A stretch of DNA of 64,000 bases from Deltaproteobacteria bacterium (GCA_016875195.1 VGRY01000014.1:1-64000), one strand, 5' to 3'; positions 27,581 to 49,844 are shown, counted from the stretch's first letter. Program-made: numbers and translations. Notes: generated by a model not told the origin, from the letters alone.

Positions 27581-27658
27581 GGGCTTTCTCCTCTCGCATC
27601 CCTGAAGTTGAAAATGTCGTAACACTTTAGTTGTTTGAAAATCTTTGTAAAATCCCTC

Positions 27659-27727
27659 CCGACCTCCCTTTTCCAAAGGGAGGAGAAACATTTCCCCCTT
27701 TTGACAAAGGGGGATGAAGAGGGATTA
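27659..27727. repeat. C/G-rich palindromic repeat
   Basis: CCTCCCTTTTCCAAAGGGAGG followed by CCCCCTTTTGACAAAGGGGG, within outer complementary ends (CCCTCC, GAGGGATTA). The same type occurs at 28873-28924, 36692-36764, 50272-50321 and 51660-51784 and inside the MITE-like elements. Here it lies in the long leader of metF2. Confidence 0.7.
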
Positions 27728-28116: not shown

Positions 28117-28791
28117 TTATCTGGCATATCTTTTTTGATAGTCTTCGTGGACCATGGTTCCACGGGTCTGGTTTTTCCACTCCCTGGCGGGTTTGACCTT
28201 CAGGATGTTTTCCAGACGGTTTTGGTCCTTCAAACGCTTAAAAATTTCATACCAGGCGCAAGGAGTATCTTTGCTCACCTCACACTTTCCTTCCCGGGAG
28301 GTGCCTCCGCAGGGACCATTGAAAAGGGTTTTTGCACACCTTGTGATGGGACAGATTCCTGCCGTTTCACCGAGGACACATTCCCGACAGGTTCGGCAAT
28401 TTTCCTCAAACCAACCGAGATCCCGGTCAACCCCGACAAAGACGGTATTGAGGGCTGGAAAGACGGGCTTGGCAGGGTATCGGTCAGCCAGGAACTGGGC
28501 GCCAGCGCCACAAGCCATGGACAGGATGGCATCATAATTCTTTGCGATCTCATCCAATTCAGGATAGAAATCTCCGTTGCATTGGCGTTCGATGGTAAAG
28601 CCCTCCGGCCGAAGCGCGATGCTTTCCTGCTGTAGTACATTGGCGAGGTCTTCATTTAATTGGTTGACCTCCTTCTGCCCGCCCGTAAAACAGATGGAGG
28701 TGCACCCGCCACAACCCACATTTAAGACCTTTTTGTAACCCTTGATCATCTCTTTGATCTCTTCTAAAGGTTTTTTCTCGGCAACGATCAT
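28117..28791 (-). CDS. metV: MetV, zinc-containing partner of methylenetetrahydrofolate reductase
   Basis: A 224-residue protein. The N-terminal part has VGCGGCTSICFTGGQ (cysteines 27, 30, 34); the C-terminal cluster has CRTCREC (132-138), ICPITRC, LFNGPCGG, GKCEV and CAWYEI, the MTHFR C-terminal (MetV) signature. MetV forms the MetFV methylene-THF reductase core of acetogens and links MetF to other redox subunits. The same cluster forms the C-terminus of the fusion protein at 20643-22652. It lies downstream of the cytochrome/HdrC-like genes on the same strand, separated by 226 bases with a C-rich palindrome. Start ATG at 28791 with GAGGAGAACA. Confidence 0.9.
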   Translation of the reverse strand: MIVAEKKPLEEIKEMIKGYKKVLNVGCGGCTSICFTGGQKEVNQLNEDLANVLQQESIALRPEGFTIERQCNGDFYPELDEIAKNYDAILSMACGAGAQFLADRYPAKPVFPALNTVFVGVDRDLGWFEENCRTCRECVLGETAGICPITRCAKTLFNGPCGGTSREGKCEVSKDTPCAWYEIFKRLKDQNRLENILKVKPAREWKNQTRGTMVHEDYQKRYAR

Positions 28792-30780: not shown

Positions 30781-31698
30781 TTAGACCACAGGCCTGGGCA
30801 GGAGTTTTGCGCGCTCGGCAATTTCCGGCACCTTGTGCTCCCATTCAATAGCCATGAGATGAACGCCATGAACTCCTTTCATCTCCTTTAACTCCTGAAT
30901 CTGTTCCACGCAGAAGTTAATCCCTTCTTCAGCTGCTTTTTTCGCTTGTACGATCCGATTGATGACCTCATCCGGGATGATGATGCCGGAGACGTTCTTC
31001 GCCATATAGCGGGCCATACCTCCAGATTTGAGAGGGGTGATCCCCGCCAATATATGGACCTTTTCAGTCAAACCCATGTCATTGGCCTGCTTGATCCATT
31101 CGCGGAACATCTTCATGTCATAGATACACTGGGTCTGTATGAAGTCGGCCCCTGCTTCCACTTTTTTAGCAAGGCGATAAACTCGCCACTCATAAGGTTC
31201 GGCAAACGGGTTTTCAGCCGCACCAATAAACATCCGGGGAGGGCCATCAATCTCATCGCCATTGAGAAATTTTTTCTCATCCCTCATCTTTTTAACGAGA
31301 CTGATGAGCTGAATGGAATCGATGTCAAAGACGCCTTTGGTCAAGGGATGGTTTCCGAACTGTTGATGGTCGCCCGAAAGGCAGAGCATATTCCGGATGC
31401 CATGGGCGTAGGCTCCGAGGATATCGCTCTGGATGGCAATGCGGTTACGGTCCCGGCAAACCATCTGATAATTGGGCTCTAACCCCTCCTGGAGGGCGAT
31501 GAGGCCAGCGCCCCAGCTCGACATGCGCACGACAGCGGTCTGGTTATCTGTGATATTGACCGCATCGACGAGGCCTTTCAGGTAACCTGCCTTTTTCCTG
31601 ACGTGGTCTCCATTGGCTCCCTGAGGAGGGCCAAGTTCTCCGGTAAATGCAAAATGTCCCGCTTCGAGAGTTCTTTCAAGACGGCTTCCTGATTTCAT
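30781..31698 (-). CDS. metF: MetF methylenetetrahydrofolate reductase paralog 3 (operon copy)
   Basis: 305 residues from MKSGSRLERT at 31698 (GGAGAAGGAGTGCCT site). Motifs: FTGELGPPQGAN (catalytic Glu), VCRDRNRIAIQ, LCLSGDHQQFG (flavin Asp), ADFIQTQCIYD and LAGITPLKSGGMARYM. This copy most resembles MetF of acetogens and lies at the end of the CODH/ACS-diaphorase transcription unit, so it is the likely main Wood-Ljungdahl enzyme. It starts 39 bases after the 134-residue unknown protein. The nearby NuoE/F/G-like genes suggest NADH supply, perhaps as one complex. Confidence 0.92.
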   Translation of the reverse strand: MKSGSRLERTLEAGHFAFTGELGPPQGANGDHVRKKAGYLKGLVDAVNITDNQTAVVRMSSWGAGLIALQEGLEPNYQMVCRDRNRIAIQSDILGAYAHGIRNMLCLSGDHQQFGNHPLTKGVFDIDSIQLISLVKKMRDEKKFLNGDEIDGPPRMFIGAAENPFAEPYEWRVYRLAKKVEAGADFIQTQCIYDMKMFREWIKQANDMGLTEKVHILAGITPLKSGGMARYMAKNVSGIIIPDEVINRIVQAKKAAEEGINFCVEQIQELKEMKGVHGVHLMAIEWEHKVPEIAERAKLLPRPVV

Positions 31699-31737
31699 AG
31701 GCACTCCTTCTCCTTTTGATAAGGATTTCACATATCT

Positions 31738-32809: not shown

Positions 32810-32900
32810 TAGTCTTATAGTCTAATCGTCTTGTAGTCGTATAGTTTTGATTTACGATTATTTGACTATGCGACGATGCGACTTTCTGACGATACGACTA
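32810..32900. repeat. tandem-armed hairpin, ATAGTC family, copy 1, running into the upstream gene
   Basis: The left arm has TAGTCCCGTAGTCTTATAGT-type units; the right arm has GACTATGCGACGATGCGACT-type units, inverted. The right arm extends past the stop codon of the NuoF-like gene (TAG at 32866-32868) into its coding sequence, so about the last 11 codons (VSSESRIVA) are made of the repeat. Second copy at 44791-44879. Confidence 0.75.
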
Positions 32901-34764: not shown

Positions 34765-34767
34765 ATT

Positions 34768-34848
34768 GAAACAATGAACATTAAACGATGAACGATGAAC
34801 AGTGAATCGATCTATAAGTTCATTGTTCGTTGTCCATCGTTCATTGTA
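34768..34848. repeat. tandem-armed hairpin, GAACGATGAAC family
   Basis: The left arm (34770-34806) has AACAATGAAC, AAACGATGAAC and GATGAACAGTGAA units; the right arm (34819-34847) has TTCATTGTTCGTTGTCCATC units, inverted. It fills the 87-base gap between the NuoE-like and NuoF-like genes. Confidence 0.75.
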
Positions 34849-34851
34849 TTC

Positions 34852-35325
34852 CTAATGGGTTTTGTCTTTGTCACGAAGGTTGATGATCACCTCCTCAACC
34901 TTGCCCGGTGTCATCTTTGGATAGATCTGGTTGTTGATCTTGACCACCGGGGCGACATTGCAACAGCCAAAACAGGCTGTCCCGTCGAGACTGAAACTCC
35001 GGTCCTCTGTGGTGTCTCCCCTGGTGATCTGGAGTTCCCTTGAGAAGGCGTCAAGGATCAGGTTTCCCCCCTGGAGGTGGCAGGCCGTTCCCAAGCAGAC
35101 ATTGACGGGGTGGCGGCCGAGAGGTTTTCTTCTAAACTGATTGTAGAACGTGACAATACTAAAAATTTCAGAAGGTGGAAGATGGAAAAAGTGGGCTACG
35201 CTCTCCATAGCCTCTCTTGAGAGATAACCCACTTTTTCCTGAATTTCGTGTAACACGGGGAGTAAATATTCTCTCTCCGGAAGGAACCTCCTCAGGATTT
35301 CCTCTATTTGGTTTGACTCTTCCAT
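34852..35325 (-). CDS. NuoE/HoxE/HndA-like 2Fe-2S subunit
   Basis: A 157-residue protein of thioredoxin-like 2Fe-2S type. The N-terminal helices have LLPVLHEIQEKVGYLS and FSIVTFYNQFR. The four cluster cysteines are in CLGTACHLQGG and GTACFGCCNVAP. It is the smallest diaphorase subunit. Its ATG lies 22 bases inside the 3' end of acsC, so it is translationally coupled to a CODH/ACS subunit. This ties the diaphorase to the Wood-Ljungdahl operon rather than to a respiratory complex I. Confidence 0.93.
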   Translation of the reverse strand: MEESNQIEEILRRFLPEREYLLPVLHEIQEKVGYLSREAMESVAHFFHLPPSEIFSIVTFYNQFRRKPLGRHPVNVCLGTACHLQGGNLILDAFSRELQITRGDTTEDRSFSLDGTACFGCCNVAPVVKINNQIYPKMTPGKVEEVIINLRDKDKTH

Positions 35326-36674
35326 TTCTCAATCATTTGGGGTAGAAAGGCAGGGAGATCGCTTGCCTCACGGGGTCCGACGACCACTTCCCAGCCCTGT
35401 AATTCCTCTTCGAGTTCTCCCTTGATTCTTGCAGCAAATCCAGGGATGATCACCCTCTTACTTTTGACTTTATCTCCCACACCAATTTTTTTGAGAAATG
35501 GTCCGGCCGTATCTCCACTGAACTTTCCCGTTGACCAGGCTGCAAGGACACAGAGACCTTCTGTATCTTTTACACAGAGGTAGGCAGGGATCTTGCTGTT
35601 TTCGATTTCACTGGCCACTGCAAAATAGGTCAATGCAAAGTTGGTCGTCAGGAGCACCGGCGATTCCGGGGAGACTGCGCCAATCTCGTAAATCTTCTGC
35701 TCCACGGCAAGTGGAACTCTCGGATCGGTGAAGATATTCTGTCTCAGAACAAGAAGGGGGTAGAGCTTCTCTTTTTCGAAATCGGATAGCACGACGATCC
35801 CGGCATATTTGATCACCCCTGCTGATGCAAGAAGTGTCTCTTCCATCTTATCTTCCGTAAGCTGACACGGTAGAGAAAGAATGGGGTAGCCAAGAGGGCG
35901 GAACGTCTTCTTCAGGGCGGCCCTGCGGATGATTGTATAATCCCTGATCATCTCCTTCAACGATTTAGGAGAGGGATCGAGAGCGATGTCCTGAATCCCC
36001 TCCGCCTTGAGCCGTTGGGTGATGGGAATGATCTCTTCAACTCCATTGGTTTTTACTCCAATGGGCGAGGGTTTTGCCTTGAGCTTTGGAATAGCAGCAT
36101 CAAGATTCTCTTTGGTGATGGGGTAGAGAAGGGGATTCTTATCCGCGATCAGATCCCTCGCTTGAAACAGGATGTCCAGATTCTCACAGATTAAAACAAT
36201 GGGGAATCCTTCTGCCGCCACTCTCTTCACCAGCCCGAGATACTTATCGCTATTTCCGGCATACTTCAATGCAAAGAGATTAGCGCGGAGTTTCTGGCCC
36301 ACACGGTCGAACTGAAGTGTCTTAATTTTATTGATCTTGGCGGAGATAACTCCTTCCTCTTCCTTGTCAGTGATGAGGATGGCGACCCCCGAAGGTCTAT
36401 AAAACGTTTTCTCGTGACGGTAGATGACCTCTTCCTCGCCCATGCTGAAAGCATTTTCCCCTGCCCCGATGGTTACCAGCTTGATCGGGGGAGCCAATCC
36501 CTCCTCAAGCTCGGTTTTGACCTCTGCGGGCAGATAGGGGCATTTCTGAACGGAAACTGCGCCCGATGCCAGTTTCATGGCAAAGGCAAAGCAGGTTGGA
36601 AAACCGCACTCCTTGCAATTCTTTTTACCGCCATCCGGCAATTTTTTCTGAATGTCAGATGCCTTAAGTGCCAT
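35304..36674 (-). CDS. acsC: CODH/ACS corrinoid iron-sulfur protein large subunit (gamma)
   Basis: 456 residues from MALKASDIQKKLPDGG at 36674 (AAAAGGAGGATTT site). The N-terminal 4Fe-4S domain has CKECGFPTCFAFAMKLASG and a fourth Cys in QKCPYLP; a TIM-barrel and a C-terminal B12-binding domain follow. With AcsD it carries the methyl group from methyl-THF to the acetyl-CoA synthase A-cluster. It corresponds to CdhE of archaea. It overlaps the NuoE-like gene by 22 bases and follows cdhC after about 125 bases with a C-rich palindrome. Confidence 0.94.
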   Translation of the reverse strand: MALKASDIQKKLPDGGKKNCKECGFPTCFAFAMKLASGAVSVQKCPYLPAEVKTELEEGLAPPIKLVTIGAGENAFSMGEEEVIYRHEKTFYRPSGVAILITDKEEEGVISAKINKIKTLQFDRVGQKLRANLFALKYAGNSDKYLGLVKRVAAEGFPIVLICENLDILFQARDLIADKNPLLYPITKENLDAAIPKLKAKPSPIGVKTNGVEEIIPITQRLKAEGIQDIALDPSPKSLKEMIRDYTIIRRAALKKTFRPLGYPILSLPCQLTEDKMEETLLASAGVIKYAGIVVLSDFEKEKLYPLLVLRQNIFTDPRVPLAVEQKIYEIGAVSPESPVLLTTNFALTYFAVASEIENSKIPAYLCVKDTEGLCVLAAWSTGKFSGDTAGPFLKKIGVGDKVKSKRVIIPGFAARIKGELEEELQGWEVVVGPREASDLPAFLPQMIEKWKSQTK

Positions 36675-36691
36675 AAAATCCTCCTTTTGTA

Positions 36692-36764
36692 AAATCACTC
36701 CTTCCCTCCCTTTTCCTAAGGGAGGAATTACCCCTCTTTGGCAAAGAGGGGTAAGGGGAGATTT
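36692..36764. repeat. C/G-rich palindromic repeat
   Basis: AAATCACTCCTTCC opposes GGGGAGATTT at the ends, with CTCCCTTTTCCTAAGGGAG and CCCCTCTTTGGCAAAGAGGGG inside. It lies in the acsC leader, right before its ribosome site. Confidence 0.7.
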
Positions 36765-36800
36765 TCCAATGGCTAAATCAATTCAATTTTGACAATCTTA

Positions 36801-38003
36801 TTAACCTGTGACCCAGGGATGGCCCACGCGATTCATGAATTCGGTCAGTTCATCCACGTTTTTCACATCTTCTTCGGTTGCAATCTTGTCGTATAGGTTG
36901 GCCTCTTCAAGGACATCTTTCACCTGTTCCTTGACCGATTTGGGGAGCCAGACGATCCTCTTCAGGCCTCCGTCTGTTTTGAGAAACTTCTTCGATCTCA
37001 TATAGGAGATGGCCATCCCGAGCATTCCCTCATTCTGCCTTCCGCCCGAAGCCTCTCCGGCGATGCCTGAGAACTTCTGGCCGTTGACCGCCTCGCCGAG
37101 AAAGTCCCGGTGGACGACACCGAACGCATCCACCTCCGGAATGTAGAAGCAGATGGCCTGGAAGCATCCACAGGAGGTATGGGGGGTTTCCAGCGCGCTA
37201 TGGAGACAGAAGGTGCTGTTTGCCCCAAGGGACTTCTCTGCCACAATGGCATTGACCCCGGAATAGATAAACTTCTCCGGATCGAGGAGGTCGCCTTTTT
37301 TCACTGCAAACTGGGGGCCTTCCGGATCCATCTTGTAAGCGGCCCTTCCATCGAACCAGTTGATGGCCCCGCAAAGCGAGACCCTCTCGGGAGTAACGAC
37401 GCAGACATGGGTGGGCGCAAACGATTGGCAGAGTGAGCATCCATAGAATTCGTCCACTTCTTCTTCGGTGATTCCTTTGAGCCGGTCATCTCTCTCTTTA
37501 TAAACCTTTCGAGCTTCGAGGACCTCTTTTTCCACCTGAGCGGGATCAGTGATAAAAGTGATCTGGATCTTTTCGATGATCGAGAGCTCGTTCTTATACA
37601 GCATGACGAGGATTCGTCCGATTTCGTCGAGGGAGTTGAGGCCCTTCTTAAAACTGTCCTTGTGAACCCTCATCCAGATCTCATCCCTCTGAGCCATGTG
37701 CCAGAAGCCTTCAATATAGTTGATGTACATGTGAACCCTGCGCTCAAAGACGGGCTCCATGTCTTTTTCCAGCTGTTCACCCGACACTAAGATCTTGATA
37801 AAAATGGGGACGGAGGCTCCTTCTTCAAACTCCTTGATGTCCTTTCCGATGATCTCAATCTTTTCGTCCTCTACCTCAGCGGCGGGTCTGACAGACACCA
37901 GCTCCGCTTTGAACTTGTGCTTCGGTCCTCCGAATTCGATTTGGAAATCTTCCTTCCTTACTGTTTCGCCTTCGTACTGGGGTCCAACATCGACTGAAAA
38001 CAT
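36801..38003 (-). CDS. cdhC: acetyl-CoA synthase, short archaeal-type (CdhC) form
   Basis: A 400-residue protein that makes acetyl-CoA from a methyl group, CO and CoA at the nickel A-cluster. Cysteines 189, 192, 201, 211, 278 and 280 have exactly the spacing of the A-cluster and adjoining cysteines known in the Moorella enzyme (506, 509, 518, 528, 595, 597). The start DVGPQYEGETVRKEDFQIEF matches the N-terminus of archaeal CdhC. The roughly 310-residue N-terminal domain of bacterial AcsB, which binds CODH and lines the CO tunnel, is absent, so it is complete as CdhC rather than truncated. Gene order cdhA-DUF166-cdhB-cdhC-acsC on the minus strand. AAGGAGGAAGAAA precedes the ATG. Confidence 0.93.
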   Translation of the reverse strand: MFSVDVGPQYEGETVRKEDFQIEFGGPKHKFKAELVSVRPAAEVEDEKIEIIGKDIKEFEEGASVPIFIKILVSGEQLEKDMEPVFERRVHMYINYIEGFWHMAQRDEIWMRVHKDSFKKGLNSLDEIGRILVMLYKNELSIIEKIQITFITDPAQVEKEVLEARKVYKERDDRLKGITEEEVDEFYGCSLCQSFAPTHVCVVTPERVSLCGAINWFDGRAAYKMDPEGPQFAVKKGDLLDPEKFIYSGVNAIVAEKSLGANSTFCLHSALETPHTSCGCFQAICFYIPEVDAFGVVHRDFLGEAVNGQKFSGIAGEASGGRQNEGMLGMAISYMRSKKFLKTDGGLKRIVWLPKSVKEQVKDVLEEANLYDKIATEEDVKNVDELTEFMNRVGHPWVTG

Positions 38004-38018
38004 TTTCTTCCTCCTTTC

Positions 38019-38552
38019 TTATTTCACACTATTGATTAGATTTTCTAAATATTCTTTCCATTTATCCGCCTTCAGATTGGCAAGGGAGAAGCTTGCATGG
38101 GGATAGACAAAGGGGCAGAGCGTGACTGTTTTCAAATGGGCGGCATAATGTTTCAATGTGGAAAGCCCCTGGTTTCCAAAGTCCGTTCTCATCCCTAAAA
38201 ACATGACCACGTCATGGTTTCCCTGTTTCTTGACTCCCTTCCATTCGGGGTCCTTCAAATGGTTGATGATCTCGACGGCATCATAAGTCGAATCAGGGGT
38301 CACACCGCATGCAAGCAGTTTCTTCTTGGTGTGGGCCGTGGCGCAGGTTGCAGCGCCAAGCGTTTTTGCTAACTCAATGCCGTATTCGATCGCCTTTTTC
38401 CCGCCCAGATCAATATCGATGCATCTCGGGCCAAAGACGAGCAGGGGTCTCTCTGCCTTCTTGATGATCTTTCCCAGAGCCGCTGCATCTTCGATGACCC
38501 GGCATCCCTTCAATCCTGTTAAGACATTGACATAATGTAATGGTAAGCTCAT
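38019..38552 (-). CDS. cdhB: ACDS complex epsilon subunit CdhB
   Basis: 177 residues from MSLPLHYVNVLTGLKG at 38552 (GGAGGTAATCAA site). Rossmann-like (RPLLVFGPRCIDIDLGG); motifs of the archaeal CODH/ACS epsilon subunit are YVNVLTG at the start, a central ATAHTKK and the last part LKHYAAHLKTVTLCP. In archaea CdhB binds CdhA to form the alpha2-epsilon2 CODH component. Classic bacterial CODH/ACS lacks it. Its presence between cdhA and cdhC marks the cluster as ACDS type. It ends 15 bases before the cdhC start. Confidence 0.85.
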   Translation of the reverse strand: MSLPLHYVNVLTGLKGCRVIEDAAALGKIIKKAERPLLVFGPRCIDIDLGGKKAIEYGIELAKTLGAATCATAHTKKKLLACGVTPDSTYDAVEIINHLKDPEWKGVKKQGNHDVVMFLGMRTDFGNQGLSTLKHYAAHLKTVTLCPFVYPHASFSLANLKADKWKEYLENLINSVK

Positions 38553-38631
38553 TTGATTACCTCCATTTGGTTGTTTTCTATTTCTACCCCTCTTCCAATT
38601 TTGCCCGAACTCAAAAGGTTTTGGAGTTGAT

Positions 38632-38774
38632 AAAATCCGAAATCCGAATATCGAAATCCGAAACAAATTTAAATTTCAAAAATTCAAATGTTTTAAATTT
38701 TTATTTGTTTTGAGCATTCGAATTTATGTCATTTGATATTGTTTCGAAATTCGAATTTCGTGCTTCGGATTTTT
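38632..38774. repeat. large imperfect hairpin, CGAAATCCGAA family, copy 3
   Basis: The left arm AAAATCCGAAATCCGAATAT and the right arm ATTCGAATTTCGTGCTTCGG are inverted, with AT-rich inner complements (AAATTTAAATTTC with AATTTTTATTTG). It fills the gap between the DUF166 gene and cdhB. Confidence 0.75.
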
Positions 38775-38839
38775 TTGATCCGATCAATGACATATCATCC
38801 TGCTATAGCCATTTTGCACACAATCTTATCCGTAAGTGC

Positions 38840-39529
38840 CTATTTTTTCCCTTTGATCGCCTCTTCCATGGCCAGCTTCATCTGCAAGCCGGCGTGGTGC
38901 ATCAAGGTATCTCCCAATTCCGGATCCATGACCATGGTGGCCATGCAGGGATGGTTGTGATGCAGGATGCCTGAACTTTCGACGGCATCCTTCATGTGCG
39001 TTCCAATCAGATGTTCGGCCACGTACCTTGTATTTCCACAGGGGGCATCCCTGATGACCCTAACCTCTTTTACCTTTTCGTTCTCAAGCTCGATGTCCAC
39101 TTCCGGCCTGCCGAAATATTTCAGGAATTCAAGGATCAGGTCGTTTTTCGTCATCTTCTCCGACAGGGTACAGAAGGTCATCGGGTGAAGAAATTCGACC
39201 CCCGCTTGTTCCAGTTTCTTTTTGAGCTGTCTGGCCAGTCCCGTGGAGAGGTGAACCTTGTTATCAACAGGGGCGATCACCGCGCGAGCCCCGATCTGCT
39301 TGATGAATAGCGGAATCATCTCAGCCACGACCGGATGCTCCTGAACCGAGATGAGGAGATCACAGGAGGGAAGGCCCTGGGGAAGGTAATCGGAAAGTTC
39401 CTCAACAAACGTGGGGATCTTCTTTGTATAGTGAAATCCCTTGACCTCCCATGCCGCAGGTCCATGCTGGCTGATATTGTCCCAGAACCTCTTCCCGTAA
39501 TCTCCCTGGTAAAGGATGAGCACTTTCAT
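38840..39529 (-). CDS. DUF166-family protein in the CODH/ACS operon
   Basis: A 229-residue protein starting MKVLILYQGDYGKRFWDNIS, with CDLLISVQEHPVVAEMIPLF and an APCGNTRYVAEHLIG segment near the C-terminus. This is the DUF166 pattern (family best known from methanogens, where it carries an old thymidylate-synthase label without good support). It has several Cys and His residues near the end (SSGILHHNHPC) that could bind metal. It overlaps cdhA by 4 bases and lies before cdhB, so it is translationally coupled to CODH. A role in CODH assembly or metal handling is a guess from context. Confidence 0.75.
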   Translation of the reverse strand: MKVLILYQGDYGKRFWDNISQHGPAAWEVKGFHYTKKIPTFVEELSDYLPQGLPSCDLLISVQEHPVVAEMIPLFIKQIGARAVIAPVDNKVHLSTGLARQLKKKLEQAGVEFLHPMTFCTLSEKMTKNDLILEFLKYFGRPEVDIELENEKVKEVRVIRDAPCGNTRYVAEHLIGTHMKDAVESSGILHHNHPCMATMVMDPELGDTLMHHAGLQMKLAMEEAIKGKK

Positions 39530-41823
39530 TTGACCACCGCATCAATCGGGATATTGCTTTCGTAGGTGCCGATCAGGGTGGGCAGGGTGAGCAGAGGTTT
39601 CGGCTTCCACCCAACGTTCTTCAGGTATTCGGATACTTCCTTCTTATAGACAATGGGAATGTCCTTATCGTTTCTGACAAAATTCTGGAGGTCATCCGGA
39701 AGCGTTCCCATGTGCTGTTTGTAGAGAGAAATATAGTGATTCAATTTAAGCTGTCTTCCCTGAGCCGTATCGTTCTTCCGGATACAAAGCTTTGCCAGGG
39801 TGATGATGGCTCGCTCTTTGCTCTCGACGACGAGGGAAAGATGCTCCGGAGAAGGTTCTTCCGTATTGACCAGCTCCTTCTTTCTTCCGTCCATGACGGT
39901 CCAGTCATCCTCTTCCTTTCTGGAGAGGTAGAGCCTTCGGTATTTAGCGGAATGGGGGCCGAGGACTACCGGGATACCCATTCGATTGCATCCTGAACCG
40001 ATACAGAAGGCTTTCTGGGAGTAAGATCCCCAGACGAGACCGACCGCACCGACTCTGTTCAGGATATAGTCTGCAATGACTTCATAGTTTGCGCGGAGGG
40101 GAAGCTTCGCAAAGATGTTGGCGACTTTCATGGCGGCCCCCGTGATATGGGCGTTGGCTACACAGCTTCCCACATTCAGGACTCCGCCTGCATCGAATTC
40201 AGGCTTAAATTTATCGTAGATCGTCTTTCCTTCAGCATCCTTCTTCATGCCGGCAGCCATGGCTGCGCAACCGGAAAGTACGACAATATATTTCCGTTTT
40301 GCAAACTCTTCGGCAATTTCAGCGACTTCATCAGCCTCTTCGGGGTAGTTCGAACAGCCGACGATGGCGATAATGCCGGGGATGGTCCCTAAGACGATGG
40401 GCGCTCCGACTTTTCTGATCTCCACGTCCTGGATGGGGCCTCTTCCCACGCGGATGTTAAAGGTGTCCCATGCGGTAGCCGCCTGCATGGTCGTGACGAT
40501 CGGAATGCCCTTGGGGCACTCCTGCTCGCATTTGCCACAGCCGATGCATCTTGCAAAGAGGTCGGCCATTTTTTCGAATTTGCCGTCTCTGAGGTCTGAA
40601 GTAGCTGCTGAAATATTAAGGAGGTTGGGGCATACCCTGTCACAGAGCCCGCATGCCTTACACTCTTTGGCAAGTTCCTGAGCCTGTGCCTTGGTGATGA
40701 TCTCTTTCTTTCTGCCTTTGGCCACGATGGGAAGGACTTTTGCAGCCACCTCTCCTGCCTTATCCACATCGCGGATGAGCACCTGTTGCCCTTCCTGGGT
40801 GATCAGCCGGACGATCTCATCGACTTCCTTATGCGTTACATCATCAAGGCCATAGCTGATCTTGTCCGAAGTGGCGATGAGTGCGCTTCCTGCGGCTTTG
40901 GCCAGTGCGGGAATATCACATCGGACGCACTGCTCATCCGATATCACGAGATCTGCAATGCCGGTTCTAAGGAAGAAAAGTTGCTTCGAAAGGGGACCGA
41001 TGATCTTCGCCTTGCCCGAATACCGGATATTGTCATGGGCGGTGCAGCAGATCCCTGTCACTTCCACCTGGTCATAAATCCCATCCTTCATCAGATGGTC
41101 GATCATCACAGTGGCGACCGCGGCATTATGGCCGACACAGGTAACAACAGGTTTTGACTTATCGACAGATCCCCAGCCTAGACCGGCAAGAGGAGTGTCG
41201 GCCACTGAGGTCGGAAATTTAAATCCGATGGTTTGGGCAATATCGGCAACCTCCATGGCCACATGGTCGAGCATGCCGATATGGAGCGACTTCGACTCGA
41301 AATCGATTTCGCTTCCTTCCTGACCCATATGGGTAGCAGAGACACCGTGGATGATGCCCCGCTCCACGTACTCAATGCCTTTTCTCAGATCTCCGAGGGT
41401 CTCCGGTTTAAGACCCATGACGGTTCTCATATGGGGGGCTTCTACGGCTACCTGTCCGCCCAGATCGATCCTGTAATCCTCGCCGTATTTATCGATGAGG
41501 TAATCCACCAGATGGCGACCGTGGGCTCCATGGGCGGAACACCCCATCAGAGAGAAGATCAATGCCCATCTTCCCTGTTGTCCGGAGATGTCGATCCCGC
41601 AAGCCCCTTTCTTATCCCCTGTCAAATCGCATTTTCCAAAGGTGCAGAAACAACAGAGGTCGCAGAAGGGGGCATAGAACGGTTTGTAGGTTTTTAGCAG
41701 CCGCCTGTCCCAACGCCTTAGATCGGATATCTCCGGCATGGGGGTGGGGCCGATCGGTTCCCAGTTATCTTCAGCCCGAATGGTCTTGTTGATCTCTTCA
41801 TTCTTTATCTTTCCTTTACTCAT
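39526..41823 (-). CDS. cdhA: CO dehydrogenase alpha subunit, archaeal CdhA type
   Basis: A 765-residue protein. The N-terminal B/D-cluster cysteines are 54, 57, 58, 60, 65 and 75 (FCDLCCFC, KCDLTGDKKGACGID). Two ferredoxin motifs sit in the middle: Cys 388/391/394/398 (CKACGLCDRVCP) and 426/429/432/436 (CIGCGKCEQECP). C-cluster residues include VGHNAAVA, ICCTAHD, VGSCVANAH and GSGCNRMG. The extra ferredoxin domain and the length are features of archaeal CdhA; bacterial CooS/AcsA proteins are about 630-670 residues and lack it. It reversibly converts CO2 to CO for the acetyl-CoA synthase. It follows acsD by 12 bases and overlaps the DUF166 gene. Confidence 0.95.
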   Translation of the reverse strand: MSKGKIKNEEINKTIRAEDNWEPIGPTPMPEISDLRRWDRRLLKTYKPFYAPFCDLCCFCTFGKCDLTGDKKGACGIDISGQQGRWALIFSLMGCSAHGAHGRHLVDYLIDKYGEDYRIDLGGQVAVEAPHMRTVMGLKPETLGDLRKGIEYVERGIIHGVSATHMGQEGSEIDFESKSLHIGMLDHVAMEVADIAQTIGFKFPTSVADTPLAGLGWGSVDKSKPVVTCVGHNAAVATVMIDHLMKDGIYDQVEVTGICCTAHDNIRYSGKAKIIGPLSKQLFFLRTGIADLVISDEQCVRCDIPALAKAAGSALIATSDKISYGLDDVTHKEVDEIVRLITQEGQQVLIRDVDKAGEVAAKVLPIVAKGRKKEIITKAQAQELAKECKACGLCDRVCPNLLNISAATSDLRDGKFEKMADLFARCIGCGKCEQECPKGIPIVTTMQAATAWDTFNIRVGRGPIQDVEIRKVGAPIVLGTIPGIIAIVGCSNYPEEADEVAEIAEEFAKRKYIVVLSGCAAMAAGMKKDAEGKTIYDKFKPEFDAGGVLNVGSCVANAHITGAAMKVANIFAKLPLRANYEVIADYILNRVGAVGLVWGSYSQKAFCIGSGCNRMGIPVVLGPHSAKYRRLYLSRKEEDDWTVMDGRKKELVNTEEPSPEHLSLVVESKERAIITLAKLCIRKNDTAQGRQLKLNHYISLYKQHMGTLPDDLQNFVRNDKDIPIVYKKEVSEYLKNVGWKPKPLLTLPTLIGTYESNIPIDAVVK

Positions 41824-41835
41824 GGGTCACTCCTT

Positions 41836-42729
41836 TCAAGAAATTAATTTTTTAACCAGTTTCAAACTCTCCGGATGGCGCAGAATCACAAGGTTTGCGC
41901 CCGACAAGATAAGGGTGAATGCGGTGATCGCTTCCCAGAGGATACCCTGGGTTTTATCTTCCTTGGCTTCTTTGGTCTTCCAGCAATCCTTACCAATGTT
42001 GGCAACCATGGGCATCTTCATCATTTCATCATTATGGATGACGGCCACCTGTTTGACACGCTCCATGATCGAAAAAGAGTAGTCGATCCCATAACCGATG
42101 GCTGCGGAAAGGGGATCAATGGCCATCTTCTCTTTGGGGAAGAATTTGGTCAGCTTCACATTCAGTTCCTTGCAGAGGTTGATATCGAGGGGGCTCTGGG
42201 GGATGATGCCGTGTCCACCTTCCAGTGCAGCCTTGGCGATTTCCTCATAGTTTTCTTTTACCAGGGGGCCAAGGAGGAGATTCTTTCCCTTACAAACCTT
42301 GGCAATCTCAACAAACGCTTTGGCATCTTTGTCCTTATCTCCAATCCCCATCACAACGAGAGGAACAGAGACCTGATCCGCGATCTTCTTCACATTCTCA
42401 GCAATTTTGGCCGCATCGAAGTTATCGTTGTCAAGACTCGCCAGATAGAGGGAGATGATGTCCGCCCCGAACTGTTTTACACATTTGTCCGCCCAGGCGA
42501 CCGGGTTTCCAAGAACATCAGCATAAGAAGAACGGAGGTGTTCCGGCCAACCTTCTGGAGGGGCATCAAAGACCTCGAGTGCGAATTTTACAGGTCCTCC
42601 TTCCGCTCCTTCAAAACCGTGGAAGGGAAGGGTTTTTTCTCCTCCAATCTTAACCGTCTTTCCTTCCGAGCCAATAGCTACCTCTTTAACGTCGCCCTTA
42701 TAAGGTTCAAAAAAGTCAGTCGATTGCAT
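41836..42729 (-). CDS. acsD: CODH/ACS corrinoid iron-sulfur protein small subunit (delta)
   Basis: A 297-residue TIM-barrel protein that pairs with AcsC (CdhD in archaea). Landmarks: GGEKTLPFHGFEGAEG at the N-terminus, the central DIISLYLASLD and PLVVMGIGDKDKD, and IDPLSAAIGYGIDYSFSIMERVK near the end, all typical of AcsD. There is no added domain; bacterial and short archaeal forms both have this length. An ATG at 42729 with AAAGGAGGATGTTA gives the start. It lies between acsE and cdhA. Confidence 0.95.
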   Translation of the reverse strand: MQSTDFFEPYKGDVKEVAIGSEGKTVKIGGEKTLPFHGFEGAEGGPVKFALEVFDAPPEGWPEHLRSSYADVLGNPVAWADKCVKQFGADIISLYLASLDNDNFDAAKIAENVKKIADQVSVPLVVMGIGDKDKDAKAFVEIAKVCKGKNLLLGPLVKENYEEIAKAALEGGHGIIPQSPLDINLCKELNVKLTKFFPKEKMAIDPLSAAIGYGIDYSFSIMERVKQVAVIHNDEMMKMPMVANIGKDCWKTKEAKEDKTQGILWEAITAFTLILSGANLVILRHPESLKLVKKLIS

Positions 42730-42755
42730 AACATCCTCCTTTGTTTAAAAAAGTT

Positions 42756-42824
42756 ACGAATGACACGAATGAAAGCGAATGGCTCGAATATTCGTGTAAT
42801 TCGTTTTCATTCGTTATATTCGTT
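42756..42824. repeat. tandem-armed hairpin, ACGAATGAC family, copy 2
   Basis: ACGAATGACACGAATGAAAG-type units in the left arm, TTCGTTTTCATTCG and ATATTCGTT units in the right arm, meeting at CGAATATTCG in the middle. The element occupies nearly all of the 98-base gap between acsD and acsE. Confidence 0.8.
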
Positions 42825-42827
42825 GTT

Positions 42828-43700
42828 TTATGATTCCAGCCAGGAATGGGAGTAGAGATTCCTTCCCATCAGCACGTTGACCGTCTTCACAATATCAGCC
42901 TCTTTTTTGGGAAGACCGGAGATGTTCAACTCTTCATCCATCGCTCTGTAAATCAAATCTTTGACGTCCTGTAGTCCGCCCCTCATCAGTGAGACCAGTT
43001 CTGTGTCGAAGCTATCCACAATGGCGGAAAAGCAGTTATATCTTTCGAGCATCACTAAGCAGATGCGGTTCAATATCCCTCTTAAATGCTCCGGAGCCCC
43101 ATTGGAAAGGTTGGACAGTCCCAAAGTTGATTTGGCTCCCGGACAGATATCCTGGAGGATCTTCATAAATTCAAAGAGCTCTACGACCTGCGGTTGGTCC
43201 ACAGAGATGGGCATCATGATGGGGTCAACCCAGATTCTTTCATTGGGGATTCCAATCTCATTGGCATAAGCGACCGTCTCCATGATGGCCTCTGCCCTTG
43301 TAGAGGAATCGGTTGGTATTCCTGCATCAATCAACACTGAAACGACAACATCACAATTATATTTAGCGGCGAGGGGAAGCATCTTCTCTTTGCTCTCCTG
43401 TTTGCCGGATGCAGAGTTGATCAGCGGGGGAATCTTGCACACAGAGAGGCCAGCTTCCATGGCAATAGGATTGGTCGTATCCAGGGAGAGAGGTTTATTG
43501 ACGGCTTCCTGGATGACCCCTGCGAGCCACTTCATGACATCGGGGTCTTTTCTCGCAGGCCCGACATTGAGATCAATATAGTCAGCGCCGGCATTTGCCT
43601 GTTTAATTGCAAGTTCCTGCAATGGTTTTTCATCTCTTTCTTTTAGGGCCGCGGAAACGACTTTTGACAGAATTTGAAGATTTTCCCCAATTAGAATCAT
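42828..43700 (-). CDS. acsE: methyltetrahydrofolate:corrinoid iron-sulfur protein methyltransferase
   Basis: A 290-residue TIM barrel of the pterin-binding family (dihydropteroate synthase-like). Motifs: DYIDLNVGPARKD near residue 40, PLSLDTTNP, PLINSASG, KSTLGLSNLSNGAP. It moves the methyl group of methyl-THF to the cobalt of AcsC/AcsD. This is the bacterial type, acting on THF, whereas the neighbouring CODH and ACS are archaeal type. It is first in the CODH/ACS unit; AAAGGAGGAGAGT precedes the ATG. Confidence 0.95.
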   Translation of the reverse strand: MILIGENLQILSKVVSAALKERDEKPLQELAIKQANAGADYIDLNVGPARKDPDVMKWLAGVIQEAVNKPLSLDTTNPIAMEAGLSVCKIPPLINSASGKQESKEKMLPLAAKYNCDVVVSVLIDAGIPTDSSTRAEAIMETVAYANEIGIPNERIWVDPIMMPISVDQPQVVELFEFMKILQDICPGAKSTLGLSNLSNGAPEHLRGILNRICLVMLERYNCFSAIVDSFDTELVSLMRGGLQDVKDLIYRAMDEELNISGLPKKEADIVKTVNVLMGRNLYSHSWLES

Positions 43701-44032: not shown

Positions 44033-44782
44033 TTATAAAAATACCTTTGTCAGGGCCTCCCTTATTTTGATTACAGAGGGGCTTGATTCCTCCAGATTGA
44101 GCATGGGAATTCCTTTCAGCTCATGGTCAACAACGTTCTCGTCCTCCGGGATGATTTCGAGCAGATTAAGGTTCAATCTCTTTACCTCCTCCATAATTTG
44201 GGGAGGAGGTTCATGGGTAACCCTGTTGATCAGGAGGAATATCTTTTTTATGTTTAAACCCAATTCGTTGACTAGGTTTTCAAGTTTCTTACAGGTCCTG
44301 ATTCCCTTCATGGATGGGTCGGAAACCAGTAGCAGGGCATCAAGGCTCCCATTCGTCCTTCGCGAGATATGTTCCATACCCGCTTCGTTGTCAATGACCA
44401 CATGTTTGTAGTTGGAGGCGAGTTTTTCTATATAATTCCGGATGATGGTATTGGGATAACAGTAACAACCCGGTCCTTCTCCTTGGCCCATGCTAATGAG
44501 ATCAAAACCCTTCTCTTCGACCAGGATTTCAGAAAGTTTGTAGTCGATCAAGGATTCTTTGACCACCCCCATGGGAAGGCTTTCTTTATCCTTTAAAAAA
44601 CCATCCAGCACTTTTCCGACGGTACTTTCCACCTTTACGCCCAGGGCGTCGCCGAAGTTCGAGTTAGGATCGGCATCAACAGCGAGGATGGGTTTAAAGT
44701 TTTTGAGGAGAAGGTAACGGAGAACCAACGATGCTATAGTGGTCTTCCCCGTTCCGCCTTTACCGGACACTGCAATCTTCAT
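44033..44782 (-). CDS. cooC: CooC-type nickel-insertion ATPase
   Basis: A 249-residue MinD/CooC ATPase with the deviant P-loop KGGTGKTT (residues 8-15), DADPNSNFGDALG, a switch region VIDNEAGMEHISR and a cysteine pair in GPGCYCYPN (CxC, the metal/dimer site of CooC). It loads nickel into the CODH C-cluster. It lies between folD and acsE; the gap to folD is entirely an ATAGTC-type repeat. Start ATG at 44782. Confidence 0.93.
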   Translation of the reverse strand: MKIAVSGKGGTGKTTIASLVLRYLLLKNFKPILAVDADPNSNFGDALGVKVESTVGKVLDGFLKDKESLPMGVVKESLIDYKLSEILVEEKGFDLISMGQGEGPGCYCYPNTIIRNYIEKLASNYKHVVIDNEAGMEHISRRTNGSLDALLLVSDPSMKGIRTCKKLENLVNELGLNIKKIFLLINRVTHEPPPQIMEEVKRLNLNLLEIIPEDENVVDHELKGIPMLNLEESSPSVIKIREALTKVFL

Positions 44783-44790
44783 GTTTCGTC

Positions 44791-44879
44791 CTATAGTCCT
44801 ATAGTCTTATAGTCCAATAGTCTCATAGTCTTTTAGCCTTTCACTATACGACTAATCGACTATTTGACTATCTGACTAT
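44791..44879. repeat. tandem-armed hairpin, ATAGTC family, copy 2
   Basis: Left arm: ATAGTC repeats at an 8-base period (ATAGTC plus two variable bases, five to six units). Right arm: GACTAT plus two bases, four to five units, inverted. The hexamer is kept while the two spacer bases differ between units and arms. The folD stop codon TAG (44876-44878 on plus) is part of the first unit. Confidence 0.85.
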
Positions 44880-45763
44880 TTAATCCCTGCAAACACCTTG
44901 GCTGCTTTGACCGTATTCATCATCAGCATGGTGATGGTCATTGGCCCCACACCGCCCGGGACTGGAGTAATGGCGCTGGCTTTCTCCTTGACGCCATCGA
45001 AATCGACATCGCCGCAAAGCTTGGCTTTTCCTTCGGGGGTCATGCCAATCCGGTTGACACCCACATCGATCACGACCGCTCCTTCCTTCACCATATCCGC
45101 CGTAATGGCCTTAGGTTTTCCAGCGGCAACGATTAGGATGTCGGCTCTTTTTGTATGGAAAGCCATGTCCCTCGAACCGGTGTGGCAAATGGTCACAGTT
45201 GCATTGGCCCCTTTCTGTTTCTGGAGAAGAATATTGGCAATGGGTTTTCCGACGATGTTGGACCGTCCCACGACAACAACCTCCGCACCATCGATCTTTG
45301 CGCCGCAGCGGATCAGAAGCTGCTGAATCCCGGCTGGGGTGCAGGGCAGATAATCGGCTTCGCCGATCATCAGTTTTCCTACATTGACAGGATGAAAACC
45401 ATCCACATCTTTCTTCGGATCGATCGCATAAAGGACTTTGGTCTCATTGATATGCTTGGGCAGCGGCAACTGAACCAGAATCCCATGGATCTTTGGGTCT
45501 TTGTTATATTTATCGATCAGGCCAAGCAATTGTTCTTCTGTAATGTCCGCAGGCTGGTTGTCCTGAATGGAGTAAAACCCCAAGTCCTTTGAAGTTTTTT
45601 GCTTTGCTGTCACATAGCTGACCGAGGCAGGGTTTTCACCCACCAGGATCGTCACCAAACCCGGTGTAACATTGTACTTCTCTTTGATCTCCGTCACTTC
45701 CTTTTTCAGCTCTTCTCTGATTTGCTGTGCAACCTCGTTTCCATTGATCAATTTCGCTGTCAT
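44876..45763 (-). CDS. folD: methylenetetrahydrofolate dehydrogenase/methenyltetrahydrofolate cyclohydrolase
   Basis: A 295-residue FolD of usual length. Motifs: SVSYVTAKQKTSKDLG (catalytic Lys), VQLPLPKHI, KDVDGFHPVNVG, the Rossmann segment VVVGRSNIVGKPIA and the C-terminal TPVPGGVGPMT. It performs two consecutive steps of the methyl branch, methenyl-THF to methylene-THF. It is placed between acsV and cooC. ATG at 45763 is preceded by AAAAAGGGGGATAAAAAG. Its stop codon belongs to the adjacent ATAGTC repeat. Confidence 0.96.
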   Translation of the reverse strand: MTAKLINGNEVAQQIREELKKEVTEIKEKYNVTPGLVTILVGENPASVSYVTAKQKTSKDLGFYSIQDNQPADITEEQLLGLIDKYNKDPKIHGILVQLPLPKHINETKVLYAIDPKKDVDGFHPVNVGKLMIGEADYLPCTPAGIQQLLIRCGAKIDGAEVVVVGRSNIVGKPIANILLQKQKGANATVTICHTGSRDMAFHTKRADILIVAAGKPKAITADMVKEGAVVIDVGVNRIGMTPEGKAKLCGDVDFDGVKEKASAITPVPGGVGPMTITMLMMNTVKAAKVFAGIK

Positions 45764-45948: not shown

Positions 45949-47955
45949 TTAACTCATCACTCTTAACTCTTGTTCTCCTTTCTTCATCTGACGGAGCCTT
46001 TCTATCACCTGCGGAAAGGCAGAGGCGTCCGTATGGGGAAGAAACATTGCCGCGACGAATTCATTCATGAACGTTGGGTGATTGCTTAACTCCAGGTTCG
46101 TCATCATCAAAGCAATTCGCTCCGTCTCTTTGATAAGATTCTTGGAGAAGGAGAGAAGTCTCGTCCCCAGAAGGGAACCATTTCCCACGAAAATAAATTG
46201 ATCGATGTCCAGTTCAGGCAGGAGACCGATAAAAATGGCCTTCTCCAGGTCGAGATGGCGTCCAAAACCGCCGGCGATGATCACCTGTTCCAGATCCTTA
46301 AACCTCAAACCGACGCTCTCCAAAAGGACTTTGCAGCCCGCATAGATCGCCGCTTTGGTGCGGATCAAGTTTTCGATGTCAATCTCCGTGAGGACGATGT
46401 CTTCCTGGACTGCTGTCTCTCCTTTTTTGGCAAGGATATATTCATAGCCGTCCGGTCCTTTTCGAATCCGGTCCGTCTGGAGGTCTCTACGGAATTTTCC
46501 GTTGGGGTCGATCATCCCTGCTTCGAGAAGGGCGGCAACCGTATCGATTAATCCGGATCCGCAGATGCCAATTGGTTTTGTTCTCCCGATCGTAAGGATC
46601 ATCGGTTCATAAGTTCGATGATTGATATTGACTTCTTCAATCGCCCCCCGGGTGGCTCTTATTCCGAATTTGATGCCGGCTCCTTCAAAGGCAGGGCCGG
46701 CAGAGCAGGAGACGCTGGCTAGCCAGTCCTTGTTTCCGAGAACGATCTCTCCATTGGTGCCGATGTCCATATAGAGGGTGAGCGTTTCTCTCTGAAAGAC
46801 TCCGGAGCCGAGAATCCCTGCAACAATATCTCCTCCCACATAACTTGCCACCATCGGAAAAATATAGGTGTGAACATGATCCGGGAGATCAATTCCAAGG
46901 TGGATCGCCCGGACCGGTGGAATGAAATTGGCTGTGGGAACATAAGGAGCTTCCCGAATAAATTTGGGGTCGAGGTCCAGGAGAAGCTGGGTCATTGTGG
47001 TATTTCCGGCAATGACCATATGAGAGATGAGGGAGCGATCGATTTTGCTCATCTCAAGCAGCTCATCGATGATCTTGTTGATGGTTGAAACCACAACCTC
47101 CTGCAATTTTTTGAGCCCTCCGGGTTTCTGAGAATAGACGATCCGGGTGATCACGTCTTCCCCGTAGCTGATCTGTCCGTTGTAATCAGAAGCTTCTGCA
47201 AGGGCAAAAAGGGTGGTTCCGTCGCATTGTCCATCTGGACAGGCGACAACGACGCAGCTGTTCAAATCGAGAATCTGGCCATAAATCGTCGTCGTTCCGA
47301 TATCGACAACAATCGAATAGTTCTGACGTGTGGTATCCCCGGGCTCCACTTTGATCAATTTATAACCCTTCCTCGTCAGGACAAGGGTTGCAGTCACTTT
47401 CCAATCCGATTCCCGGAGGATTCGACTCAACTTCATGATGACCCGGAAATCTGAGGAGATGCCTCCGATGCCGTGGTGTCGCTCCAGTCCATTGGTCAAC
47501 CGGGTGAGGTCGCTCATATTATCTTTCTGAGTTGGAGGGGCGAGCTGGACATATTTCTTAAAGACGGCTGGATCGACCTCCCACCCCTGAACCAACTGGT
47601 AGATGTCCTGAGGAGCCAGAAGGTATTTATGAGCGGTTCGGTCACCTTTGAGTTGAAGAACCGATTTGTCTACCTGCGATTCGAGAGGGATCTCAACATC
47701 GAGGTCTCCATGAATGGAGGTGAGGCAGGCAAGTCGAATCCCTTGATCATATTCCTGCTGTGTGGTTTTGGGATGTTTCGGAGAGTCGGCCATCCCTTGC
47801 AGAAGATGGATCTTACACTTCCCGCAGGTGGCGCTTCCCCCGCAAGAAGCATTGATATGAATTCCTGCTTCCATAGCGGCCTGGAGGAGGTTCTCCCCCT
47901 CGTTGACTGAAATTTTCTTTTCACCGGGATGAAAGGTAATCAGATGCTTCGGCAT
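45949..47955 (-). CDS. acsV: corrinoid protein reductive activator (ASKHA/RACo-like)
   Basis: 668 residues from MPKHLITFHPGEKK at 47955. The N-terminal 2Fe-2S ferredoxin domain has CGGSATCGKCKIH and LACLTS; a linker follows, then a C-terminal ASKHA ATPase region (VVDIGTTTIYGQILD, GDIVAGILGSG, MDIGTNGEIVLG, ICGSGLID). It reduces inactive Co(II) corrinoid protein back to Co(I) at the cost of ATP. The frame could start at 47994, but the internal ATG fits family N-termini. It lies right after the fhs terminator and upstream of folD-cooC. Confidence 0.92.
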   Translation of the reverse strand: MPKHLITFHPGEKKISVNEGENLLQAAMEAGIHINASCGGSATCGKCKIHLLQGMADSPKHPKTTQQEYDQGIRLACLTSIHGDLDVEIPLESQVDKSVLQLKGDRTAHKYLLAPQDIYQLVQGWEVDPAVFKKYVQLAPPTQKDNMSDLTRLTNGLERHHGIGGISSDFRVIMKLSRILRESDWKVTATLVLTRKGYKLIKVEPGDTTRQNYSIVVDIGTTTIYGQILDLNSCVVVACPDGQCDGTTLFALAEASDYNGQISYGEDVITRIVYSQKPGGLKKLQEVVVSTINKIIDELLEMSKIDRSLISHMVIAGNTTMTQLLLDLDPKFIREAPYVPTANFIPPVRAIHLGIDLPDHVHTYIFPMVASYVGGDIVAGILGSGVFQRETLTLYMDIGTNGEIVLGNKDWLASVSCSAGPAFEGAGIKFGIRATRGAIEEVNINHRTYEPMILTIGRTKPIGICGSGLIDTVAALLEAGMIDPNGKFRRDLQTDRIRKGPDGYEYILAKKGETAVQEDIVLTEIDIENLIRTKAAIYAGCKVLLESVGLRFKDLEQVIIAGGFGRHLDLEKAIFIGLLPELDIDQFIFVGNGSLLGTRLLSFSKNLIKETERIALMMTNLELSNHPTFMNEFVAAMFLPHTDASAFPQVIERLRQMKKGEQELRVMS

Positions 47956-48019
47956 TGATAATCTATTTATAACCTGTATTCCCGGGTGGTGCAAAACTCA
48001 ATCTGGGTCCGTCTTATAA

Positions 48020-48056: not shown

Positions 48057-49844
48057 TTAGAAAAGCCCGCTGACCTTGCCCGTATTCACATCGACATCGA
48101 CTCTTCGATAGGCAGGATCAGAGGCAGTCCCGGGCATCAGGCTGATGGTTCCGGCCATGGGGCAGAGGAACTTTGCGCCAGAAAAGACCAGGACATCCCG
48201 GATCGGAAGAATCCAGCCCTTGGGCACTCCCTTTTTGGTCGGATCATGGGAAAGACTCAGATGGGATTTGACCATCATAGTATTATAATCCTTCATCTCT
48301 GGGTTGGCTTCAAAACGCTTGGCTTTGGCTTCGGCGTCGGGCAACCAGGAAACTCCATCCGCTCCGTAAACTTCCTTGGCAACCATTTCAACTCTCTGCC
48401 GCAAGGGGGTCTCCAGAGGATAGAGAAATTTAAAGTTGCTCTTATCATTGCAGGCATCCATCACGACATCAGCCAGCTCTAGCGCGCCATCTCCTCCTTT
48501 AAGCCAGTGCTCAGAGGTCGCAACGCGGGCTCCTGCTTGCTCGGCTGCCTTCCGGACAATAGCGATTTCATCTTTTGTGTCGGTATGGAACGCATTGACG
48601 CAGACCACTGGATTAATCCCCGCCTTCTTAATCACACCGATAAGGTGGACCATATTAGCACACCCTTTTTCCACCAGGCTGAGATTCTCTTTGGTATATT
48701 CTTCCGGAAGAGGTCTTCCTGGAACCACGGTGGGGCCGCCGCCATGCATCTTCAACGCCCTGATCGTTGAAACCAGAACCGACACATGAGGAGTTAGGCC
48801 ACTCAGCCTGCATTTCACATTCCAGAACTTTTCAAAGCCGATATCTGCGGCAAACCCGCTCTCCGTTACATTATAATCAAACATCTTTAAAGCAATACGG
48901 TCGCCAATGATGGAGGACTGTCCAACAGCGATGTTGGCAAAGGGGCCGGCGTGAACCAGGATGGGCTGGAATTCCACGGAAGTCATCAGGGTGGGGTTAA
49001 TCGTGTTTCTCATCCAGGCGGTCATGGCGCCTGCCACATCAAGGTCCGAAGTGGTTACAGGGTTTCCTTTCTTATCGTAGGCAACGGTGATTTTACCGAT
49101 CCTCTCCCTCATGTCTTTTAAATCCCGGACGATGGAAAGGATGGCCATCAGCTCAGAGCTGACGGCAATGCCGAACTTGGATTGCATCAAGAAACCATCC
49201 TGTTTTCCACCGATACCGATGAGAATATTTCTCAGAGACTGGGCACAAAAATCCATGATCCAGCCCATTTCAATATTGGTTGGATCCACATCGAGACGCT
49301 TCAGTCCTCTTTTAGTTAATTCGGCATCATCGTAATTTCTTTCGTGCTGCATCCTCGATGTAAGGGCGACCATAGCGAGGTTATGGGCATTCATAATATC
49401 GTTAATGTCGCCGGTAAGACCCAGTGAAAACTCGGTCATCGGGATGAGGAGCGCCTTTCCGCCCCCTGCTGCGGTTCCTTTAACGTTCATTGTTGGGCCA
49501 CCGGAAGGCTGGCGAAGGACTGACCCAACATTCTTTCCTCTTTTCCCAAGTCCCTCGATTAAGCCGAGACTGGTCGTTGATTTCCCTTCTCCGAGAGGAG
49601 TCGGAGTAATAGCAGTGACTTCAATGTATTTCCCGTCGGGTTTATTTTTTAGACGATCAATGATTTTCATGAAATCCAGTTTGCACAATTTTCCCATAGG
49701 GATAATTTCTTCTTTTTTAAGTCCCAACTTTTCCTGCCACTCCTCTACGCTGGGCATGTTTTCTTCGGCGATTTCGGCAATCTGCCAATCCATCAACTTC
49801 CTCGGGTCTGCATCGATGTATTTCTGTGAAATCTTAAATCCCAT
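48057..49844 (-). CDS. fhs: formate-tetrahydrofolate ligase
   Basis: A 595-residue enzyme that makes 10-formyl-THF from formate, ATP and THF, the entry of the methyl branch. Motifs: the ATP site [12 protein letters not shown] (about 81-92), [38 protein letters not shown], and the end [14 protein letters not shown]. It is slightly longer than the 555-560 residues common in Firmicutes. AAGGGGGAGACTGAAAC precedes the ATG. It has its own promoter (49943-49999) and terminator. Confidence 0.96.

Follow-up and report, generated by a model that had tools for sequence, protein, structure and literature searches.

Archaeal ACDS is a stable 2.2 MDa assembly, known structurally from the Methanosarcina CODH/ACS (PDB 9c0q-9c0t, 3cf4), and the bacterial AcsA-AcsB enzyme is represented by that of Moorella (PDB 1oao). 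Between them stands a six-subunit hybrid, in which archaeal-type cdhABC accompany bacterial-type acsC, acsD and acsE. A hybrid CODH/ACS was described in Unc8 of NPL-UPA2 (PMC6305446), in Hakuba Actinobacteria with the gene order acsED-cdhABC-acsC (PMC7325909), and, at Hakuba and The Cedars, in every putative homoacetogen (PMC9751293). Published hosts comprise NPL-UPA2 Unc8, Ca. Desulforudis, Chloroflexi RBG_13_51_36 and the Hakuba Actinobacteria (PMC6305446, PMC7325909, PMC9751293). Bacterial clade-A CODHs have been reported too (PMC6344411, PMC13240472), and Adam et al. 2018 is cited by the papers on the hybrids for a transfer from archaea.

Here we analysed a 64,000-nucleotide stretch of DNA (the window) from a Deltaproteobacteria bacterium (GCA_016875195.1, VGRY01000014.1:1-64000) that carries a locus of this hybrid type. 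The type is already known and is not peculiar to the window genome; given the published cases, we rejected the description of the locus as an unprecedented hybrid. The archaeal-type CODH/ACS genes were all found where the initial annotation had placed them, on the minus strand, in the order acsE-acsD-cdhA-DUF166-cdhB-cdhC-acsC (35304-43700). The wider minus-strand run comprises fhs, acsV, folD, a CooC-like ATPase, acsE, acsD, cdhA, DUF166, cdhB, cdhC, acsC, a NuoE/NuoF-like pair and metF. AcsE, Fhs, FolD and AcsV are thus present as first listed, and MetF as well, while the DUF166 gene, the CooC-like ATPase, the NuoE/NuoF-like pair and a second, bacterial-type acsA-acsB locus are additions to that list. 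The features are as follows.

48057..49844, minus strand: fhs, formyl-THF synthetase (named from sequence reading; ortholog adjoins in relatives)
45949..47994, minus strand: acsV, corrinoid protein reductive activator (NF040756, 668.7 bits, under its 800 cut-off; RACo domains)
44876..45763, minus strand: folD (named from sequence reading; ortholog adjoins in relatives)
44033..44782, minus strand: CooC/AcsF-like nickel-insertion ATPase (CbiA/MinD-family matches and position)
42828..43700, minus strand: acsE, methyl-THF:corrinoid protein methyltransferase (PF00809, 61 bits; NF005719, 211.9 bits, under its 259 cut-off)
41836..42729, minus strand: acsD/cdhD, small (delta) subunit of the corrinoid protein, lacking the N-terminal extension of archaea (NF003376, 355 bits; TIGR00381 match from model position 68)
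39526..41823, minus strand: cdhA, alpha subunit of an archaeal-type Ni-CODH, carrying the E and F cluster motifs (TIGR00314, 1036 bits)
38840..39529, minus strand: DUF166 protein (PF02593, 197.7 bits; 4-base overlap with the end of cdhA)
38019..38552, minus strand: cdhB, CODH epsilon subunit (TIGR00315, 107.6 bits; start set at ATG 38552)
36801..38003, minus strand: cdhC, short acetyl-CoA synthase of domains A2-A3 only, without A1 and without the archaeal C-terminal tail (TIGR00316, 571 bits; 9c0s match; tree; tail census)
35304..36698, minus strand: acsC/cdhE, large (gamma) subunit of the corrinoid protein, on the bacterial side (NF003195, 548.6 bits; with bacterial AcsC in the tree, 95* branch)
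34852-35325 and 32866-34764, minus strand: NuoE-like and NuoF-like proteins (PF01257, PF01512, PF10589)
30781..31731, minus strand: metF, methylene-THF reductase (PF02219, 138.5 bits)

In profile searches, CdhA, CdhB and CdhC each passed the cut-off of the corresponding archaeal equivalog model (781, 101.2 and 356 bits, respectively), in keeping with the earlier call of a cdhB epsilon gene, and CdhC did not reach the cut-offs of the full-length AcsB models (528 vs 800). The two extra ferredoxin motifs previously noticed in CdhA were located at residues 388-398 and 426-436 (C388/391/394/398 and C426/429/432/436), and among the rows compared every archaeal one, and nearly every bacterial hybrid, retains both four-cysteine motifs. 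The A-cluster cysteines of CdhC lie at residues 189, 192, 201, 211, 278 and 280; their steps of 3, 9, 10, 67 and 2 agree, as had been claimed, with those of the Moorella enzyme, whose cysteines we take to be C506/509/518/528/595/597. M. thermophila CdhC (9c0s) aligned over the full length of the window CdhC, and Moorella AcsB aligned from its residue 322, so that about 320 N-terminal residues are missing from CdhC, close to the 310 or so first estimated. The start of CdhC corresponds to AcsB model position about 299-304, domain A1 is absent, and CdhC is about 35-46% identical to the full-length AcsB rows. The locus shares with bacterial AcsA-AcsB, including a second copy in its own genome, the A-cluster cysteines, domains A2-A3 and AcsC/AcsE-type partners, but differs from it in that bacterial AcsB has A1 and bacterial AcsA is without the E/F cluster insert. 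With archaeal ACDS it has in common a CdhA with E/F clusters, CdhB, an A1-less CdhC and largely kept contact residues, but it has THF and AcsE instead of the archaeal methyl branch.

We also examined the corrinoid and methyl-branch proteins, using from the AcsC and AcsD trees, which include conventional-Acs loci L127-L156, the topology alone and no group tallies. AcsC of the hybrids grouped with bacterial AcsC, apart from archaea, on a 95* branch in a tree with just two archaeal rows. For AcsD, the root branch of the delta-subunit tree has a support of 27; the protein has no archaeal N-extension and scores 235 against the bacterial AcsD model cut-off of 430. AcsE was assigned to the bacterial type by family match. 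Judging from these sequences, the locus very probably encodes a hybrid CODH/ACS that joins an archaeal carbonyl branch to a THF-based bacterial methyl branch, as the initial annotation had it, and the CdhA and CdhC trees together with the gamma subunit uphold this reading. We are similarly confident that the enzyme's setting is the Wood-Ljungdahl pathway of an uncultured Thermodesulfobacteriota ('Deltaproteobacteria') lineage. In such a pathway, CdhA with CdhB would use the C-cluster to interconvert CO2 and CO, exchanging electrons via the E and F clusters. For the methyl step, CdhC would leave CdhA and take a methyl group from (or give one to) the bacterial-type corrinoid protein AcsCD, which AcsE would load from methyl-THF, with AcsV reactivating the corrinoid and the CooC-like ATPase aiding nickel insertion. 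Unlike the genes, their order, the cluster motifs, the contact residues and the phylogeny, the direction of flux is something that we infer. The NuoE/NuoF-like pair (32866-35325) lies downstream of acsC and is a likely electron partner; of 80 loci fetched, 44 have NuoE downstream of cdhA, the Bacillota loci seen not being among them.

These 80 loci, obtained by a scan of genome contigs, come from Chloroflexota, 'Deltaproteobacteria'/Thermodesulfobacteriota, Bacillota, Actinomycetota, Bipolaricaulota, NPL-UPA2, one Nitrospira-labelled MAG and three archaea. The survey of gene order suggested earlier recovered the order AcsE-AcsD-CdhA-CdhB-CdhC-AcsC in 46 of them, the remainder being mostly cut by contig ends or without a detected cdhB. 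The closest CdhA proteins (88-93%) belong to MAGs such as K_DeepCast_250m_m2_302, RBG_16_49_23 and DeMMO6_17. Compared with the published acsED-cdhABC-acsC order, the window differs in having DUF166 inserted after cdhA, before cdhB; its host is also a member of the Thermodesulfobacteriota, and the MAGs of its relatives are, by name, from lake water or the subsurface and not only from alkaline serpentinite sites. The hybrid combination is stable within a genus and occurs widely among bacterial phyla, and the archaeal carbonyl module and bacterial methyl module of this LUCA-traced enzyme appear interchangeable.

The phylogenies that the initial annotation had proposed as a check were run for CdhA and CdhC. 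In the CdhC tree, rooted on AcsB, a 100/100 branch sets full AcsB apart from the short forms, on whose side the hybrid CdhC all fall into a single clade (100/100). The branch that nests this clade inside archaea has support of 93/95, and 6% of bootstraps recover archaea as a single clade. In the CdhA tree, which has no outgroup, a 100/100 branch divides the bacterial hybrids from archaea, and the window CdhA falls in the same clade as the published hybrids Unc8 (L068), Hakubella (L070) and RBG_13_51_36 (L087). Both the separation of CdhC from full AcsB and these groupings bear out the hybrid reading. From the sequences, cdhABC most likely reached bacteria from archaea, a transfer to which the CdhC nesting lends moderate support; it was perhaps a single event, most likely followed by spread among bacterial phyla. 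The separation in the CdhA tree would also suit an ancient hybrid inherited vertically, in which bacteria received the short ACS and CdhAB from a common ancestor and other bacteria lost them, but that tree is unrooted and fits either history. As the distribution is patchy inside one family, hybrid CdhC is nested in archaea in the AcsB-rooted tree, and published trees favour transfer (PMC6305446), we consider vertical inheritance improbable. That archaeal genes came to lie on a bacterial contig by a binning or assembly chimera is hardly credible: the assembly has 187 contigs and 5.1% estimated contamination, but archaeal- and bacterial-type genes alternate within one operon, a pattern that recurs in each of the ten genus genomes and at about 70 further loci. 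We rejected contamination on the strength of this repetition across genus-mates.

The window genome itself holds a second synthase, and we weighed which of the two enzymes is the main one. A PF03598 search of the assembly found one further ACS, on contig C36, where acsA and an acsD stand ahead of an acsB that has the N-terminal domain and is broken off by the contig end. The composition of C36 resembles that of the window (tetranucleotide correlation 0.979), and a genus-mate (G009) carries the hybrid and acsAB operons on one 42-kb contig, so the co-occurrence is real. All of this would accord with AcsA-AcsB being the working carbon-fixing complex and the hybrid an auxiliary copy for other conditions, such as low CO2 or the acetate-oxidising direction. 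However, all ten genus genomes have the short hybrid CdhC and five of them AcsB as well, four genus genomes of 97-98% completeness have the hybrid only, and the hybrid adjoins fhs, folD, acsV, acsE and metF, which together make an auxiliary role for the hybrid unlikely. Thus, the separate full-length acsB that the initial annotation had named as telling against its reading does have a counterpart on C36, but its presence does not make the hybrid secondary. At the family level, some genomes have only the hybrid and others only AcsB. Two further CODH-family observations were made: a third, divergent frame of 588 aa with 168 bits to the CooS model lies outside the window in the same genome (G000:C2:364-1989), and genus-mate G001, a MAG with 6% estimated contamination, has two hybrid-type CdhA of different subclades (L020 = G001:C213; L167 = G001:C157).

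Lacking the AcsB N-terminal domain, the enzyme had been thought to need a way of delivering CO other than the classic bacterial tunnel. The A1 route is indeed ruled out, but the alternative is not new: the 2024 structure of M. thermophila CODH/ACS shows A1 replaced by the second Rossmann fold of CODH, which forms the CO channel, and CODH residues R500, L504, V507 and F601 sit over the A-cluster (PMC11474084). As this structure supplies a route, we rejected the idea that CO delivery is unexplained. By alignment, the equivalent residues of the window CdhA are R470, A474, V477 and F571. The R and F columns are invariant in 125 CdhA rows, bar one ambiguous residue; bacteria have either V or T in the V507 column, and the L504 column varies, archaea included; the ACS contact F195 is retained in the window CdhC. 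In a BLAST comparison, a stretch of the A1 domain of AcsB matched CdhA 462-523 (62 residues, 42%, E 5e-6), as would be expected if A1 and the second Rossmann fold of CODH are related. The CO route here is most likely the archaeal one: the conserved contact residues and the likeness to Methanosarcina suggest that the short CdhC docks on CdhA and that a short channel within CdhA's second Rossmann fold would lead CO straight to the A-cluster of the docked CdhC.

The window enzyme also departs from archaeal ACDS at two protein ends, the C-terminus of CdhC and the N-terminus of the delta subunit. Judged by tail length and by reading of the sequence ends, a tail extending 43 to 125 residues past A3 is present in 41/41 archaeal short CdhC, the only tailless archaeal rows in the group being two long proteins of ~690 residues that group with AcsB, and in 0/74 hybrid-type CdhC from the fetched loci and relatives, a set that has same-genome duplicates. 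The archaeal tail usually ends in a basic motif, e.g. GGIKIILKNAKIEIGQVIL or GGFKIILKDAVITAKKVVIRK; M. thermophila CdhC has the tail, which is not resolved in the structure. In four archaea the CdhC itself ends differently and the tail motif (GGIKxxLKNAKIxIxQVI) belongs to a small ORF of its own beside cdhC (L188 2911-3126; L192 1062-1310; L193 2951-3232; L194 1187-1525). At its N-terminus archaeal CdhD is extended by ~69-133 residues, as read from stop to stop, and this extension contains an acidic motif, e.g. VELEDVKIKGDVEIEL, whose rhythm is that of the CdhC tail motif. In our census this extension was absent from bacterial and hybrid CdhD, and the window CdhD begins at TIGR00381 position 68.

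We hypothesise that the CdhC tail and the CdhD extension dock to each other as a beta-delta pair of archaeal ACDS with which the hybrids dispense, an idea drawn from the very sequences that show the tail and the extension, with a charge contrast assessed by eye and simple counts on related rows. Archaeal ACDS may tether ACS to the corrinoid protein by these matched flexible ends, basic on CdhC and acidic on CdhD; the hybrids would have lost or never acquired both, and their CdhC would be a minimal A2-A3 synthase that works untethered with a free corrinoid protein of bacterial type; we advance this tentatively, as a proposition whose chances fall slightly below even. No structure exists of ACS bound to its corrinoid protein (PMC11474084), and we found no archaeal CdhD structure in the PDB. 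The joint absence of tail and extension in hybrids is possibly a new point. If the two ends are a docking device, the hybrids would be natural deletion mutants that separate the archaeal parts for the tie to the corrinoid protein from the catalytic parts.

A single archaeon was seen with hybrid-clade CdhC, and in it both ends are absent. The MAG 'Methanophagales archaeon ANME-1-LC' (G061) has cooC-DUF166-cdhA-cdhB-cdhC (L065 8429-14106, contig JACGMN010000099.1) among archaeal neighbours, namely AglJ, an archaeal shikimate kinase and the RFAP-synthase family. Its CdhA lies within the bacterial clade (AU test against placement with archaea, p 2.5e-5), its CdhC also lies within the hybrid clade, and a search of the MAG gave no hit to a further CdhA or CdhC; CdhD and CdhE are on other contigs. 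The CdhC is tailless, and the CdhD is without the acidic extension that two order-mates retain. Possible explanations are a back-transfer from bacteria to archaea, a relic of the donor lineage, or a chimeric contig.

The DUF166 gene occurs in the cdh operon of 19 of the 80 loci, at no fewer than four different positions and in several phyla; all ten genus genomes have it, and only 5/49 other relatives. Residues C120, C164, C195, H191 and H211 are invariant in 19 sequences. An AlphaFold2 model was confident (pLDDT 92.7) and matched no PDB fold at E 0.001, no sequence relative was found in the PDB, and a literature search on DUF166 returned only unrelated longer DUF numbers. Our guess would be a role in CODH/ACS metal or cluster maturation. 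Beside the main metF, the window also encodes another MTHFR-like protein (26708-27691), as well as a DUF5981 protein of the MTHFR C-terminal type (28117-28791).
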